A stretch of 31,140 nt of DNA. Origin: a virus. Shown here one piece after another: positions 3,337 through 29,076 of this stretch (its first letter is position 1; the number at the start of each line of letters is the position of its first letter). Under the pieces are notes generated by a model, which searched no databases, was not told the origin of the DNA, and saw only the letters and a program-made list of their open reading frames with translations. Made by a program: the position numbers and the translations under genes. Location of the stretch: IMG/VR virus record IMGVR_UViG_3300032668_000097, positions 1-31,140 of that record. One strand, 5' to 3'.

Positions 3337-3618
3337 TTAACAATTACATCTACAATTACAATTATTCGTTCCTATTCCATATACGCCACCACCAGTATCA
3401 TACCAATACCAAGCACCAAATGGAAGATTACCACCATTACCGCAGTTTCCTACACTAAAATTACTTATGCTTAATGCACCTGCATAATTACCTAAATCAT
3501 TAGTATACTGACTTAGTTTGGTTGGTCTTCCTGCCACTTGTGTCCATGCAAAAGTTGAGCTTGATAATGTAGTTCCATCACCAAAAACTATACTACCATT
3601 TGTGAGCTGCGTTGACAT
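3337..3618 (-). CDS. small fibre-like protein with C-terminal alternating Cys tail, copy 3
   Basis: This 93-residue protein is the last of three tandem paralogues. The N-terminal block MSTQLTNGSIVFGDGTTLSS and the block PTKLSQYTNDLGNY are shared with the other two copies; the NG...F.D..L pattern also occurs at the start of the fibre protein encoded at 6285-7247. The middle (residues 55-85) is Gly/Trp/Tyr-rich and differs from the other copies, with an extra Cys59. The protein ends TNNCNCRCNC, Cys at 87, 89, 91 and 93, with the stop codon directly after the last Cys. I infer a virion-attached N-terminal part and an exposed Cys tail that could bind metal, form disulfides, or be crosslinked by the SPASM enzyme downstream. 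Function unknown. Confidence 0.82.
   Translation of the reverse strand: MSTQLTNGSIVFGDGTTLSSSTFAWTQVAGRPTKLSQYTNDLGNYAGALSISNFSVGNCGNGGNLPFGAWYWYDTGGGVYGIGTNNCNCRCNC
3340..3363 (-). repeat. Cys-tail coding hexamers (copy 3)
   Basis: Eight codons encoding NCNCRCNC directly before the stop at 3337-3339. The units are mostly AAT-TGT. Confidence 0.75.
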
Positions 3619-3627
3619 AGATAACCT

Positions 3628-3912
3628 TTAGCAATTACACTGACAATTACAATTTGGAGAATATGGATATAATGTAGATCCATTCCATCCTACAAGTATT
3701 TGTGCATCAGATGGGGAACTACTATTCCAATAAGCTACTGTAGTAGTATCTATATTGCTTGCTGTTAACCAACCACCATAATTACCCAAATCATTGGTAA
3801 ATTGACTTAATAAAGTTGGAACACCAGTAATAGAGCCTTGAGCAACTGTATTAGTGCTTAGTGTGGTACTGTCTCCAAATACAACTGATCCATTTGTTAA
3901 TTGCGTTGACAT
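3628..3912 (-). CDS. small fibre-like protein with C-terminal alternating Cys tail, copy 2
   Basis: This 94-residue paralogue starts MSTQLTNGSVVFGDSTTLST, nearly identical to copy 3, and keeps PTLLSQFTNDLGNY. The middle is divergent and has no cysteine. It ends YSPNCNCQCNC with Cys at 88, 90, 92 and 94 and the stop immediately after. The tail residue between the second and third Cys is Gln here, Arg in copy 3 and Tyr in copy 1, so the C-x-C spacing is kept while one intervening residue varies. The gaps to the neighbouring genes are 9-10 bases, consistent with one polycistronic message. The pattern of a conserved anchor, a variable middle and a conserved Cys tail suggests diversified surface proteins that share one kind of tail processing (inference). 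Confidence 0.82.
   Translation of the reverse strand: MSTQLTNGSVVFGDSTTLSTNTVAQGSITGVPTLLSQFTNDLGNYGGWLTASNIDTTTVAYWNSSSPSDAQILVGWNGSTLYPYSPNCNCQCNC
3631..3654 (-). repeat. Cys-tail coding hexamers (copy 2)
   Basis: Eight codons encoding NCNCQCNC directly before the stop at 3628-3630. The final Cys codon is TGC rather than TGT, and Gln is CAG, so the repeat is not a perfect microsatellite. Confidence 0.75.
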
Positions 3913-3922
3913 TTATTTTCCT

Positions 3923-4192
3923 TTAGCAATTACAATAACAATTACAATTACAATTAGATACTTGCAAACCAATTTGAGATCCATTCCAAGTAAAATTAAC
4001 ATGAGGATTGGATGCTCCACCTACACCACTAGTATTTACACTTGTAACCCAATTTTCATAGTTACCTAAATCATTAGTGAATTGACTCAATTTTGTACTT
4101 GGGTTTGTAACATTTGCATAGGGCAAATTAGCACTAGATAATGAGGTGCCATCTCCAAAAGTTACATTACCATTACCAATATTTGCTGACAT
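3923..4192 (-). CDS. small fibre-like protein with C-terminal alternating Cys tail, copy 1
   Basis: The 89-residue first copy has the same plan: MSANIGNGNVTFGDGTSLSS, then PSTKLSQFTNDLGNY, a variable middle without cysteine, and a longer tail SNCNCNCYCNC with five cysteines (81, 83, 85, 87, 89) up to the stop. Its ATG overlaps the stop of the upstream fibre gene by one base (TAATG), coupling its translation to a 330-residue fibre protein. The tail is encoded by near-perfect AATTGT hexamers, so N-C units could be gained or lost by slippage without breaking the frame. That all three copies keep the frame, the spacing and the terminal Cys argues that the tail is selected. Function unknown; candidate substrate of the radical SAM/SPASM enzyme. 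Confidence 0.82.
   Translation of the reverse strand: MSANIGNGNVTFGDGTSLSSANLPYANVTNPSTKLSQFTNDLGNYENWVTSVNTSGVGGASNPHVNFTWNGSQIGLQVSNCNCNCYCNC
3926..3955 (-). repeat. Cys-tail coding hexamers (copy 1)
   Basis: Ten codons encoding NCNCNCYCNC directly before the stop at 3923-3925. This is one N-C unit longer than the other two copies, consistent with hexamer slippage or selection for length. Confidence 0.75.
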
Positions 4193-12608: not shown

Positions 12609-13199
12609 TTAAATCACCCTAACCAAAGTATATTTATTTTTTACCTTGCCTTTATTAGCTATTAATTGTGAAATATTACCTGCAACTGTTCCAAAAAAAT
12701 CTGCTGCATATTTTTGATTCAAAAATGATATGGCAAGCTCTTTACAATATACTGGTTTCCATTTTGCTTTTGCAGTTTTAGCAATATCATCTTGAGATTT
12801 TTTACGACCTATATTTGCTTTTCCCCATTTACTTCTAATTACAGGATCTTGCAATGTTTTCTTTAAAGATATGCTACGTTTAATAACAACTTCTTTAGGT
12901 GGAATATATCCTTTAACTCCAGATCCACCTTTAGTCATATTATAAACTGGTTTAAACTCTTCTATAAGTAATTTTTCAGCTTGATGCAACGACTCTTCAT
13001 CAAAAGCATAAAATATCTCATCAAATACAAAGCTTTCAAACTTATATTTGTTAAGTGCTTCTGAAAATTTAGTCTTATATGTTTTCATTGAGCATTTATG
13101 ATTGGTAATTCTTTTCTTTATATTTTGACAAGTTTGACCGATATATTGTTCACCAGTAATCTTGTTGGTACAAAGATAAATAATACCAAATCTATTCAT
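12609..13199 (-). CDS. free-standing GIY-YIG homing endonuclease
   Basis: This 196-residue enzyme has the GIY-YIG core at its start: GIIYLCTN (residues 4-11) and EQYIGQT (17-23), with the expected R30 after KK and a Glu in the KLLIEEFKPVYNMT block (about residues 87-100). The C-terminal part is basic, with short DNA-binding units (KRSISLKKTLQDP, IGRKKSQDDIAK) like NUMOD3 modules and a final helix-turn-helix-like segment (NQKYAADFFGTVAGNISQLI). Family role: cuts a specific phage DNA site and spreads by repair copying. The start overlaps the upstream stop by one base (TAATG), so it has settled into the operon. No interrupted host gene is visible. A second partial GIY-YIG gene is at 1-76. Confidence 0.9.
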   Translation of the reverse strand: MNRFGIIYLCTNKITGEQYIGQTCQNIKKRITNHKCSMKTYKTKFSEALNKYKFESFVFDEIFYAFDEESLHQAEKLLIEEFKPVYNMTKGGSGVKGYIPPKEVVIKRSISLKKTLQDPVIRSKWGKANIGRKKSQDDIAKTAKAKWKPVYCKELAISFLNQKYAADFFGTVAGNISQLIANKGKVKNKYTLVRVI

Positions 13200-18751: not shown

Positions 18752-18890
18752 AATATATCCTTATGCAAAAGTCCTCTTATCAATCATTGCATTGTCTGCT
18801 GGGGCAGTCCGATAAGAGTAATCACCCAGATATAATATTCTTGCATAAAATGCTTGAAATTGCAACAAATATCTATTAATATTGCAAACT
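18752..18890. promoter_or_regulatory. divergent intergenic region with putative promoters
   Basis: This is the longest non-coding stretch in the window and lies between divergent genes, so it must drive both the plus-strand glycosylation island and the second minus-strand structural unit. A TATAAT (18831-18836) is a good -10 for plus-strand transcription but has no clear TTGACA at the usual spacing. A second pair, TTGAAA (18854-18859) with TAATAT (18877-18882), has 17-base spacing but would give an almost leaderless message. On the minus strand TATTAT (around 18833-18838) is a possible -10. A small inverted repeat gcat-aaa-atgc (18843-18853) may be an operator. Promoter positions are tentative. 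Confidence 0.55.
18774..18818. repeat. nested inverted repeat in the divergent region
   Basis: Perfect 8-base arms CTCTTATC (18774-18781) and GATAAGAG (18811-18818) enclose 29 bases that hold a second small hairpin, CTGC-TGGG-GCAG. Transcribed leftward, it would form a structured 5' leader of the MARST gene, ending 22 bases before its start. It lacks a U-tract, so it is not a simple terminator. It may be an RNA stability or control element, or a protein-binding site. Confidence 0.6.
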
Positions 18891-20465
18891 ATGAGAGCAT
18901 ATCCAGAGCAGGTTTTACACCAATATAATCAAGCATTTTCCTTGAAATTACAAGGTAAAGTCCAAGAAGCATTAACTCAATGTGAGTCTATTTTAAAGAT
19001 TCATCCAACTTATTCTTTAGCCCTTCAGCTCATAGGCATAATATTTGCAGAAGTCAAGAACTATCCCATGTCTTTAGAATACTTTACAAGAGCCATGAAG
19101 CATGATAGGAAGAATGCGGCTATTTATAGTAATCGTGGCAATGTTTACCAAGATACCAAACAATATGACTTGGCTTTAGCTGATTTTGATCGTGCCATAA
19201 GTATCAAAAGAGACTTTGTTGAGGCTCATTATAATAAAGGCAATTGTTGTAAAGAGATGAATCAATATGAAAAAGCTATAGAATGCTACAAAAGAACACT
19301 AGTCTTTAATCCAAAATACAAGGATGCCTATACAAATATGGGTACTTGTTATCAAAATTTACAACAGTTTGATAAGTCAGTTGAATGTTACGATAAGACG
19401 ATTGAGATCAATCCACAAGACTGGATGGCTTATAACAATAAAGGTTATGCATTACATGTATTAATGAACCTAGACGAGTCTATTAAAACATATGATCAAG
19501 CTATATCATCTAATCCAGATAACCCAGATCCTAAGTTTAATAAAGGACTTGTAGAGCTTTTAAAGGGTGATTGGGAAAAAGGTTGGGAAGGACATGAAGT
19601 TAGATGGACTAATCGTTTTTCTCCAGTTAAATTGCCTAAACTTTGGAAGGGTGAGGATCTAACAGATAAAACAATCTTTATTCATCACGAACAAGGTATT
19701 GGTGATACGATCCAATTCTGTCGTTATCTTAAGCTTTTAAAAGCTAAAAAGATTATTGTAGCTGTTAAGCCAGAAGCTTTTGCCTTATTAAAATCCATGC
19801 CTGAAATAGATGAGATCTATGATGACTTATCTAAAGTAAATGAGAATGATTATCATTATCAATCACCATTTATGTCATTGCCTTATATATTTAAAACAAG
19901 ACCTAACAACATTCCGCATGATGTTCCTTATCTATTTGCACCAGAAGATCGTGTAGCTTATTGGAAAGATAAGTTAAAGGATGATAAGAAGTTTAAAGTA
20001 GGACTTGTATGGTCTGGTGGATTTAGAGCAGATCAGCCAGAATTATGGGCTGTTAATAATAGACGTAATGTTCCATTAGATAAGTTAGCTTCATTCCAAA
20101 ATGAAAACATATCATTTTACAGTTTACAAAAAGGTGAGTTTGCTGAAGCTGAATTAAAGAACTCTAAAGTATGGAATATGATTGATTATACTTCTGAGTT
20201 ACAAGACTTCTCAGATACTGCTGCATTGATTGAAAATCTTGATCTTATAATCTCTGTAGATACATCGACTGCACACGTAGCTGGTGCTCTAAACAAACCT
20301 GTATGGATGATGAATCGATTTGACACATGCTGGAGATGGTTAACAGAAGGCAACAAAACAGATTGGTATCCAAGTATGACTATCTATAGACAGAATAGTT
20401 TCAACAATTGGTATAACGTGATTAACAATATTGCAATAGACCTACATGCACTTTCCAGAAGATAA
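18891..20465 (+). CDS. TPR-repeat glycosyltransferase (GT9/GT41-like)
   Basis: The product is about 524 residues. The N-terminal half has six to seven TPR units with the consensus YNKGN...YDLALADFDRAI (AIYSNRGNVYQDTKQYDLAL, AHYNKGNCCKEMNQYEKAIE and others). The C-terminal half is a glycosyltransferase fold with GIGDTIQFCRYLKLL, KVGLVWSGG, a SLQKGE strand and DTAALIENLDLIISVDTSTAHVA split over the nucleotide-binding region, as in TPR-linked GT9/GT41-like proteins. It probably transfers a sugar from a nucleotide donor to a protein or glycan; the TPRs would bind the partner. I chose ATG 18891; an in-frame TTG at 18882 is possible, and neither has a clear ribosome site. It is the first gene of the plus-strand island. 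Confidence 0.82.
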   Translation: MRAYPEQVLHQYNQAFSLKLQGKVQEALTQCESILKIHPTYSLALQLIGIIFAEVKNYPMSLEYFTRAMKHDRKNAAIYSNRGNVYQDTKQYDLALADFDRAISIKRDFVEAHYNKGNCCKEMNQYEKAIECYKRTLVFNPKYKDAYTNMGTCYQNLQQFDKSVECYDKTIEINPQDWMAYNNKGYALHVLMNLDESIKTYDQAISSNPDNPDPKFNKGLVELLKGDWEKGWEGHEVRWTNRFSPVKLPKLWKGEDLTDKTIFIHHEQGIGDTIQFCRYLKLLKAKKIIVAVKPEAFALLKSMPEIDEIYDDLSKVNENDYHYQSPFMSLPYIFKTRPNNIPHDVPYLFAPEDRVAYWKDKLKDDKKFKVGLVWSGGFRADQPELWAVNNRRNVPLDKLASFQNENISFYSLQKGEFAEAELKNSKVWNMIDYTSELQDFSDTAALIENLDLIISVDTSTAHVAGALNKPVWMMNRFDTCWRWLTEGNKTDWYPSMTIYRQNSFNNWYNVINNIAIDLHALSRR

Positions 20466-21204
20466 TCTTTACCTTGTAGATGGAGGTATTGGAGACTTCC
20501 TCCAATTTGTGCCATTTATGCTTCAATATAAGCGTAGATACTTTGTTTTAACGCATTTTAAAGGTGCTAAAGAGCTTATGTTAGCTTTAAATGTCATGCC
20601 TGATACGTTAATGTATTACTCTACAGAACCTGAAAAAGTAGAGAAAATTAAACAAATTGCACTCCATAATACCATCAATCAATGTCCAAGACATTTTTAC
20701 TTCTACGGTAATCCATTCCCAAAACAAAAGCCATTATTTGATAATGATAAAAAGACTATTGGTGTTCATCTAAATGGAAGTAAGTTCTCTTTAGAATGGC
20801 AAATAGCCCATAATATGATTACTAAATCTATTCCTTCAAAGATTATAGAGTCTTTTAAAGATTACAATGTGATTGTATTTGGATTGCCTGAAGACTTAGA
20901 AGGTTTAGAAGAGTCTGATCATGTGAAGTTTGTTTGTTATAAAGATATAGCCAAAAGCTTTGCTTATGTTGAACAGTGTGATTATGTGGTGGCTGCAGAT
21001 AGTTCTGTTAAAACCATGAGCTCTATGTTACGCATTCCTACATTCGTATGGATGGCAGATAACGAAGATCCATTTAGAGATAAGATCTTTATTGATCAAT
21101 ATGTCAAAGATGGCATTATGAAAACATTCAAATATAAAAATGCTTTTGATGATATGGATGAAGGCATCAAGCAAACCATGGAGTTTTTAAATGAATCCAA
21201 ATAA
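20446..21204 (+). CDS. GT9-like (heptosyltransferase-type) glycosyltransferase
   Basis: The 252-residue protein starts MHFPEDNLYLVDGGIGDFLQ; the GGIGDFLQF motif (13-21) is the N-terminal signature of ADP-heptose:LPS-type transferases. The C-terminal half has IGVHLNGSKFSLEWQIAH, YNVIVFGLPEDLEG and YVVAADSSVKTMSSMLRIPT, the donor-binding strand-loop-helix with a conserved D-S-S. It is shorter than cellular heptosyltransferases (about 320-350), so it is minimal or acts with the neighbouring transferase. It overlaps the TPR gene by 20 bases and the FkbM gene by 14 bases, so all three are co-translated. The acceptor could be host LPS or a virion protein. Confidence 0.75.
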   Translation: MHFPEDNLYLVDGGIGDFLQFVPFMLQYKRRYFVLTHFKGAKELMLALNVMPDTLMYYSTEPEKVEKIKQIALHNTINQCPRHFYFYGNPFPKQKPLFDNDKKTIGVHLNGSKFSLEWQIAHNMITKSIPSKIIESFKDYNVIVFGLPEDLEGLEESDHVKFVCYKDIAKSFAYVEQCDYVVAADSSVKTMSSMLRIPTFVWMADNEDPFRDKIFIDQYVKDGIMKTFKYKNAFDDMDEGIKQTMEFLNESK

Positions 21205-21928
21205 AGTAGTTAATTCACAATATGGTCAAATCATCATAAATACAAACGATAAGGGAGTTGGAGCTTCTATATCTGAAGGATCATATTTTGAGCCTGAAAA
21301 TATAAACATTATGATTGGAGTGATCAACACACTTCTACAAAGAAAAGACAAAATTACATTCTATGATGTAGGTGCTAACATTGGAACACATACGTTAGCC
21401 ATAGCTAGTACATTCAAAAATAAAGTATTTATAAGATCATTTGAAGCTCAAAGACAAGTTTATTATATGTTATGCGGAACTATTGCTTTAAATGGATTAC
21501 GCAATGTATATGCTCACCATTGTGCCGTTGGTGGCTATTATGGTTTGATTGATATTGATTTACCAGATTACAATGTAAGACAAAACTTTGGTGGTCTTGA
21601 GATTAAAGAGATAGATAAATCAGATAATCAAGATATGATTTTTAATAGTTCAGAAAACATTGAAATGATGAGATTAGATCAGTTTCATGAACCTATTGAT
21701 TTCATCAAAATGGATATTGAGGGAATGGAGGAAGAGGCTTTATTTAGATCCTCGCTTATGCTTGAGGAGTATATGCCTGTTTGCTACGTGGAAATATTTA
21801 AATCTAATCAAGATCGCATTTTTAGCTTCTTTAAAAGCCTTGGCTATAAATGCTATTCAAATGGTCAAGATATGCTTGCTATGCCGACTGGCATGGATGT
21901 AACTATTCTAAATTTTAATCCTGTATAA
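21191..21928 (+). CDS. FkbM family SAM-dependent methyltransferase
   Basis: The 245-residue protein has the methyltransferase motif I FYDVGANIG (57-65), an acidic post-motif at FEAQ (84-87), and DFIKMDIEGMEEEAL (170-184), the FkbM signature. FkbM enzymes O-methylate sugars or polyketides; next to two glycosyltransferases, methylation of a sugar is most likely. The gene overlaps the preceding one by 14 bases and its stop is directly followed by a hairpin (21930-21948). Such cassettes in aquatic phages are thought to alter surface glycans. Target unproven. Confidence 0.85.
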   Translation: MNPNKVVNSQYGQIIINTNDKGVGASISEGSYFEPENINIMIGVINTLLQRKDKITFYDVGANIGTHTLAIASTFKNKVFIRSFEAQRQVYYMLCGTIALNGLRNVYAHHCAVGGYYGLIDIDLPDYNVRQNFGGLEIKEIDKSDNQDMIFNSSENIEMMRLDQFHEPIDFIKMDIEGMEEEALFRSSLMLEEYMPVCYVEIFKSNQDRIFSFFKSLGYKCYSNGQDMLAMPTGMDVTILNFNPV

Positions 21929-28572: not shown

Positions 28573-29076
28573 TTATCTAAATGCGGGTCCCATAGCCCAA
28601 GCCACCGCTGTAAATCTCTCACCAGAGGTAACAGCAGTCACTCGATGTGGTAACACCGATGGAAAAACGATAATACTTCCCTTAGGAAGTTTTGGAATTG
28701 GAGAGTCCAAGTCCTTTAGTTCTAGTAAGCCACCTTCATAATCATCTGGGTTTGACAGAATAAGTATTGAGGAGAGTTTGCGTTGATTGCCAAACTCGTC
28801 TGGATTGTAAGAGTCACTATGCCAATCATAGTGGCCACCTACTTTATAATGTCCGATCTGGACTGGTTCTATATAAGATGTTGCATAATTCCAATTTGCT
28901 TGGATATTGGCAAGTCCTATATAACTCTGCATTATACATCCAACTGGCTCCATTGGGTTAACAAATACAATATTTGTTTGACGTTTGTCTGGATTTATGT
29001 ATGTTTCATTTGCATGCATAAAACCACCGTCTTTACCTTTAGACCAGTCAATTTCTTTTAGGATAAGATCACACAT
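28573..29076 (-). CDS. 2OG-Fe(II) dioxygenase, PKHD/P4H type, start uncertain
   Basis: The 167-residue protein has the iron motif HxD at His86-Ser-Asp88 (YDWHSDSY), distal His144 (LPHRVTAV) and the 2OG-binding Arg154 (ERFTAVAW), so all catalytic residues are present. PKHD enzymes hydroxylate prolines or other residues in proteins and are frequent in marine phages. The reading frame stays open upstream of ATG 29076 and encodes TRVWWQERIISED, which fits the usual N-terminus of this family. No ATG, GTG or TTG lies between the TAG at 29130-29128 and ATG 29076, only ATT codons, one of which (29121) would overlap the terminase stop. Substrate unknown. Confidence 0.87.
   Translation of the reverse strand: MCDLILKEIDWSKGKDGGFMHANETYINPDKRQTNIVFVNPMEPVGCIMQSYIGLANIQANWNYATSYIEPVQIGHYKVGGHYDWHSDSYNPDEFGNQRKLSSILILSNPDDYEGGLLELKDLDSPIPKLPKGSIIVFPSVLPHRVTAVTSGERFTAVAWAMGPAFR

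Follow-up and report, generated by a model that had tools for sequence, protein, structure and literature searches.

Cys-tailed proteins of a freshwater phage are paired with a radical SAM/SPASM enzyme, their candidate maturase

Introduction

The closest described systems are CteB and the SCIFF/sactipeptide/ranthipeptide maturases (PapB, ChlB, and TigE), which share with the phage enzyme described here a radical SAM core and SPASM fold and, likewise, have a Cys-rich partner nearby. CteB is a thioether-forming RiPP maturase, and anSME makes formylglycine. The latter resembles the phage enzyme in fold and acts in the cytoplasm on a protein substrate that has no leader peptide.

The locus analyzed here lies in a 31,140-base virus record from a freshwater phage, the whole of which we refer to as the window. 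In contrast to CteB-type systems, the partner is a tail-fibre-type protein with a C-terminal (N/D/A)C repeat rather than a short leader-core peptide, the enzyme falls well short of the family cut-offs, and no exporter or leader peptidase was seen in the phage cassette. The candidate substrates differ from those of RiPP systems in being whole virion-type proteins, and the phage tract differs from anSME substrates in being a run of alternating Cys with no sulfatase motif. The enzyme is a member of phrog_1802 ("radical SAM domain-containing protein"), a family without a functional assignment whose description does not include a Cys-tail partner. Two kinds of self-cleaving C-terminal domain, the Peptidase_S74 chaperones of tail fibres and Hint domains, follow the Cys tract in some relatives, where they would expose the tract as a new C-terminus; the window proteins end in the tract directly. 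A search of the open-licence PMC literature (preprints excluded) returned nothing on phage tail proteins being matured by radical SAM enzymes, which is weak evidence of absence.

Results

Three tandem proteins end in alternating cysteines

An earlier note on this DNA had described three tandem paralogues with a constant N-terminus, a variable middle, and a Cys-ended tail, and the ORFs and their alignment bear this out. All three ORFs lie on the minus strand (3337-4192), with 9-10 nt between neighbors (Table 1). They have in common an N-terminus of the form MS...NG...FGD.T.LS followed by a T.LSQ.TNDLGNY block; their middles differ, and Cys is the final residue of each. The note had also described the tail spacing as fixed; the C-x-C phase is indeed constant, but total length is not, given that copy 1 carries one extra Cys-x unit. 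What the note missed is the main point, i.e., the linked radical SAM/SPASM enzyme.

The triplet has only a weak PHROGs match (phrog_29238, E 0.004), and the AF2 model of a Cys-tail protein (pLDDT 50) is unusable. Since its own family matches are weak, the status of the triplet as a carrier rests on its position, adjoining tail-fibre genes, and on its relatives. By analogy with these relatives, in which annotated tail fibres bear the tract, the triplet may plausibly act at the tail tip or in host recognition.

Table 1. Features of the Cys-tail locus in the window
Feature	Position	Strand	Basis or remark
Tail-fibre-like protein, 330 aa	4192-5184	minus	phrog_38233 tail fiber, E 2e-8; first in run, upstream of copies
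Cys-tail protein copy 1, 89 aa	3923-4192	minus	ORF; ends NCNCNCYCNC
Cys tail of copy 1	3926-3955	minus	10 codons ahead of stop
Cys-tail protein copy 2, 94 aa	3628-3912	minus	ORF; ends NCNCQCNC
Cys tail of copy 2	3631-3654	minus	
Cys-tail protein copy 3, 93 aa	3337-3618	minus	ORF; ends NCNCRCNC
Cys tail of copy 3	3340-3363	minus	
Companion protein, 255 aa	2558-3325	minus	C-terminal Ig-like/invasin-like sequence (putative); conserved near enzyme
2OG-Fe(II) oxygenase-like protein, 213 aa	1908-2549	minus	phrog_81, E 3.4e-10; end overlaps radical SAM gene start
Radical SAM/SPASM protein, 450 aa, candidate Cys-tail maturase	556-1908	minus	phrog_1802, E 2.9e-68
CX3CX2C radical SAM cluster motif (C75, C79, C82)	1663-1686	minus	Invariant in 35 sequences
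SPASM seven-Cys region (C311, C330, C370, C373, C379, C383, C395)	724-978	minus	Invariant in 35 sequences

The triplet sits in an operon-like run of minus-strand genes

The genes from 5184 down to 556 are tightly packed on one strand, in the order tail-fibre-like protein, three copies, companion, oxygenase-like protein, and radical SAM/SPASM protein, with gaps of ~8-11 nt or one-base overlaps, an arrangement that appears operon-like. The companion's C-terminus looks Ig-like/invasin-like by our reading of the emitted profile consensus. Using profile searches grown from the window sequences, we found companion relatives within 6 kb of the enzyme in 76 of ~160 radical SAM loci and oxygenase relatives near it in 100 of them; neither occurred in any of the 42 control tail loci.

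The oxygenase scores 22.1 bits against PF13759, under the Pfam gathering cut-off of 27, but its phrog_81 match (Table 1) identifies it as a divergent relative of 2OG-Fe(II) oxygenases. PF13759 matches were found near the enzyme in four triplet-type records (G051, G023, G041, and G027) and are absent from Achromobacter phage JWF, and we therefore regard the oxygenase as a frequent accessory rather than an obligate part. A second 2OG-Fe(II) oxygenase-like ORF, recognized by eye from its translation, adjoins the terminase (28573-29076, minus strand). Elsewhere in the window, three plus-strand genes (18882-21928) lie within the minus-strand structural block. One encodes a TPR protein (by profile match) whose C-terminus we read as glycosyltransferase-like; by the same reading of the sequences, another encodes an FkbM-type methyltransferase-like protein, and the remaining one is an ORF of 252 aa. 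Between virion genes lies an ORF (12609-13199, minus strand; MNRFGIIYLCTNKITGEQYIGQTCQ...) that, again by eye from its translation, looks like a GIY-YIG endonuclease.

The linked enzyme belongs to the radical SAM/SPASM group

The enzyme has both hallmarks of the radical SAM superfamily: the CX3CX2C motif, whose C75, C79, and C82 are invariant in 35 relatives, and, by matches of its predicted fold, the partial TIM-barrel core. Its Cys residues also fit the SPASM pattern CX9-15GX4C...CX2CX5CX3C...C, with C311-X13-G325-X4-C330 followed by C370, C373, C379, C383, and C395, and it matches TIGR04085 at 32.7 bits, above the cut-off of 27. The best NCBIfam models are those of peptide maturases (PapB, nif11, geopeptide, and CcpM), all far under their cut-offs; even the best of them, PapB (NF047865, E 6e-16), reaches 58.6 bits against an equivalog cut-off of 340. 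Because every specific maturase model scores this far under its cut-off, the chemistry of those families cannot be assigned to the enzyme.

The AF2 model of the enzyme has a pLDDT of 91 and a pTM of 0.90. In a Foldseek search, the top match by E-value was anSME (E 3.6e-13); by Z, the model is closest to CteB (24.3 over 360 residues), followed by ChlB, anSME (20.7), and TigE, so that the predicted fold appears about equally near anSME. The N-terminal region of the model contains three strands and no helices, with no helical RRE evident, and CteB aligns with the model from residue 1. Radical SAM proteins of Campylobacter phages and of two faecal contigs are distant matches (26-30%). In record G110 (that of locus L132), a phrog_1802 match at C1:20955-22388 spans stops (3 TGA and 2 TAA), probably by read-through past the gene end.

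Enzyme and Cys tail occur together in both directions of search

We examined 80 IMG/VR loci encoding enzyme relatives (42-100% identity), which were collapsed into clusters at 90% identity. A partner was initially defined by at least 3 CxC, a criterion that missed 8 full-flank loci; 7 of these had a Cys-rich partner with fewer CxC, and the eighth, L024, had a short downstream flank. We then relaxed the criterion post hoc, so that at least 6 NC also qualified, and required a right flank of 2.5 instead of 1.5 kb for a locus to count as "full"; the control on the minus strand used the relaxed criterion. On these terms, all 35 full-flank enzyme clusters have an ORF with Cys-X repeats on the same strand and no more than 5 kb away. 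Across the 80 loci, such an ORF is found on the enzyme strand in 71 and on the opposite strand in 1.

The partners beside the enzyme are of three types: window-like triplets, proteins of 125-173 aa, and collagen-like fibres that end NCNCGQTNCYSNCNCNCNCNCNCDC. The 125-173-aa type has the pattern MTLPSSG...EIG...NCNCGN.QC.NC...WLQ.NCNCACTYNC...NCNCNC and ends 14-70 nt upstream of the enzyme; where it has an added C-terminal domain, it mostly starts 60-160 nt downstream. Enzyme relatives in bacterial genomes (Limnohabitans, Polaromonas, Rhodoferax, Rhodobacteraceae, Rhodospirillales, and others) mostly have the same Cys-X partner.

In the opposite direction, a DNA-pattern scan of IMG/VR for NCNCxCNC-stop returned 75 records, 60 of which have phrog_1802 at E below 1e-54. 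Among the 15 without the enzyme, 5 have no ORF over the match, which is out of frame, and 10 are contigs ending 72-2441 nt past the tail. In addition, we assessed co-variation in 50 records whose proteins contain the TNDLGNY module also found in the window proteins: all 8 Cys-tailed records have the enzyme, as against none of the 42 tail-less ones, many of which exceed 100 kb. With near-duplicates collapsed, the comparison comprises 6 Cys-tailed and 17 tail-less groups (p about 1e-5). The earlier note would have been contradicted if tail-less homologues were the norm and tails appeared only sporadically. Tail-less homologues do exist, but loss of the tail goes with loss of a specific enzyme and is not sporadic. 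The enzyme-tail pairing is well supported.

The Cys tract is carried by different proteins

Bona fide tail fibres are among the carriers, including the collagen-like fibres. Another example comes from two cultured phages of Achromobacter xylosoxidans, JWF and 2-1, whose fibre gene, two genes upstream of the enzyme, encodes the tract (NCNCDCNCNCS or NCNCDCNCS) and, directly after it, CFPAGTMVLMADGT, recognized as a Hint domain (PF05203, E 3e-12, from residue 308 of the JWF fibre). Hint follows the tract in JWF gp28, L018, and L272, and S74 does so in L039 and L048. The tract is terminal in 87 of 125 distinct partners. It is followed by an unnamed 150-aa domain in 26, by Hint in 4, and by S74 in 2; the remaining 6 are of other kinds, ~3 of them spurious ORFs. 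We read the tract as meant to be a C-terminus, which self-cleavage would expose where it is not already terminal.

The ~150-aa domain (CNCSK-II-C.KLY...ADQ.YG), seen for example in L015, L033, L043, L053, and L061, occurs in partners that lie mostly 60-160 nt downstream of the enzyme. It gave no Pfam match in the two sequences tested and no sign of cleavage in these 26 partners; it may be another exposing or membrane-contacting domain.

The tail is under purifying selection and the triplet is conserved by position

Across related loci, Cys-tail codons show a pS of 0.69 and a pN of 0.00 (88 codons, ten pairwise comparisons), interchanging freely between AAT and AAC and between TGT and TGC, whereas the N-terminus of these proteins has a pN of 0.13 and the middle one of 0.27. 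The purifying selection that had been predicted for the tail is therefore supported. Diversifying selection, predicted for the middle, is not supported: dN/dS is 0.13-0.21 in the few unsaturated, more diverged comparisons, most pairs being saturated. From these few comparisons, the middle appears to be under relaxed constraint and not positive selection. Microsatellite expansion was considered as an origin of the tails and rejected, since the codon variation is synonymous only; the tails are thus neither chance products nor slipping microsatellites.

Three tandem copies are present in 10 of the 11 triplet-type loci examined, and two in the remaining one. On a tree, the copies cluster by position: labels change 7 times, as against 15.5 in shuffles, none of which went as low in 200. 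Window copy 2 falls among the second copies from other phages (8 rows, the window's among them; support 93/97), the copy 1 group has 7 rows (support 88/89), and the highest identity of window copy 1 (60%) is to its positional counterpart L202_1. Clean separate clades for all three copies were not obtained: copies 1 and 2 sort mostly by position, copy 3 does not form a single group, and support at several forks is weak. In the divergent locus L217, the three copies of the triplet group together. This conservation by position suggests that the three paralogues may form a heterotrimeric tip.

Some chromosomal relatives lie in RiPP-type settings

A few chromosomal enzyme relatives (36-41% identity) have no Cys-X partner nearby. 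One (L283) is beside a C39-peptidase ABC exporter and HlyD, another (L295) beside an ABC exporter, and a third (L314) beside PqqD. In L309, the relative lies beside a fused nitroreductase-YcaO protein and an ATP-grasp protein, with similar ORF layouts in L311 and L313; judged by gene content in the first and by layout in the other two, these are possibly an uncharacterised RiPP cluster. L309, L311, L313, and L315 (around 8001) are chromosomal enzyme relatives in Ramlibacter and Variovorax. Given such settings, a peptide-maturase ancestry of the phage enzyme is reasonable.

Discussion

We propose, with a probability of roughly 0.75, that the triplet consists of virion tail-appendage subunits whose Asn-Cys tail is the substrate of the downstream radical SAM/SPASM enzyme. 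The tail proteins would be synthesised in the host cytoplasm, a reducing environment that does not allow disulfides to form. The enzyme would recognise the tail in the context of its carrier protein, and a SAM-derived radical, together with auxiliary Fe-S clusters, would modify the tail Cys. The likeliest links would be thioethers from Cys sulfur to carbons of nearby Asn, Asp, Ala, or other X residues, giving a compact, redox-proof C-terminal tip, with the three paralogues forming a heterotrimer. Where Hint or S74 follows a non-terminal tract, self-cleavage would expose it. The Ig-like companion would probably be a co-assembling virion protein, and the oxygenase would probably add a second modification to the same protein group, for example hydroxylation.

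These steps are not equally secure. The gene anatomy, the linkage in both directions, the co-variation, the selection on the tail, and the enzyme's motifs and predicted fold come directly from the analysis; action of the enzyme on the tail is inferred and quite probable. Thioether formation as the chemistry has about an even chance, and a role of the compact tip in adsorption or stability is just as evenly balanced. That the oxygenase specifically hydroxylates these proteins is doubtful. PapB accepts Cys-Xn-Asp with n = 0-6 (PMC9413430), and the close Cys spacing of the phage tails is therefore no bar to thioethers. The phage tails do not contain the PapB substrate motif CX3D/E (PMC9413430). 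They are Asn-rich and not Asp-rich, with x in C-x-C mostly N, A, or D.

The enzyme might instead act on the Cys tail without making thioethers, by anSME-like formylglycine formation, epimerisation, or another reaction, leaving reactive or protease-resistant ends. The top Foldseek match (anSME, E 3.6e-13, Z 20.7), the presence of TIGR03942 among the enzyme's sequence matches, and the deposition of JWF gp30 as an anaerobic sulfatase-maturating enzyme are all consistent with this, as is the fact that anSME acts on a protein without a leader. The tails, however, have no sulfatase-type C-x-P/A-x-R motif, a regular alternating Cys run suits multiple links better, and the best structural score belongs to CteB (Z 24.3), a thioether former; we consider this alternative improbable. 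Less probable still is a metal- or Fe-S-binding or disulfide-forming tip, with a different virion protein as the target of the linked enzyme. Such densely alternating Cys might bind metal, and tail spikes with bound metal ions are known, but the tail follows the enzyme and not merely the neighborhood (none of the 42 tail-less TNDLGNY carriers has it), and entirely different carriers of the tract keep the enzyme.

The tails are built of near-identical AAT TGT units, as would be expected if they were chance hexamer (AAYTGY) repeat expansions with no role. We give this explanation almost no credence: variation is synonymous but not non-synonymous, the D, A, Q, Y, R, and V variants keep the Cys phase, and the co-occurrence and co-variation with the enzyme contradict it. 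The preferred reading, with the tail as substrate of the enzyme, can be extended to many tailed phages and prophages, which would carry a RiPP-like cassette for virion maturation. In it, the enzyme would cross-link the C-terminal (N/D/A)C-repeat tails of tail-fibre or tail-tip proteins into a redox-proof covalent tip, the triplet would be an obligate heterotrimer, and self-cleavage by Hint or S74 would expose the modified end in some. We advance this wider proposition tentatively, at somewhat less than even odds.

The proposal extends to cultured systems, namely Achromobacter phages JWF and 2-1 and prophages of cultured Limnohabitans. If the proposal is true, a function would be assigned to phrog_1802, a widespread unannotated phage enzyme family, and nature would offer in it a source of enzymes able to modify large proteins at their ends with no need for a short precursor peptide. 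It would also represent a new kind of virion post-translational modification, in which phages finish their infection machinery with chemistry known from peptide natural products.
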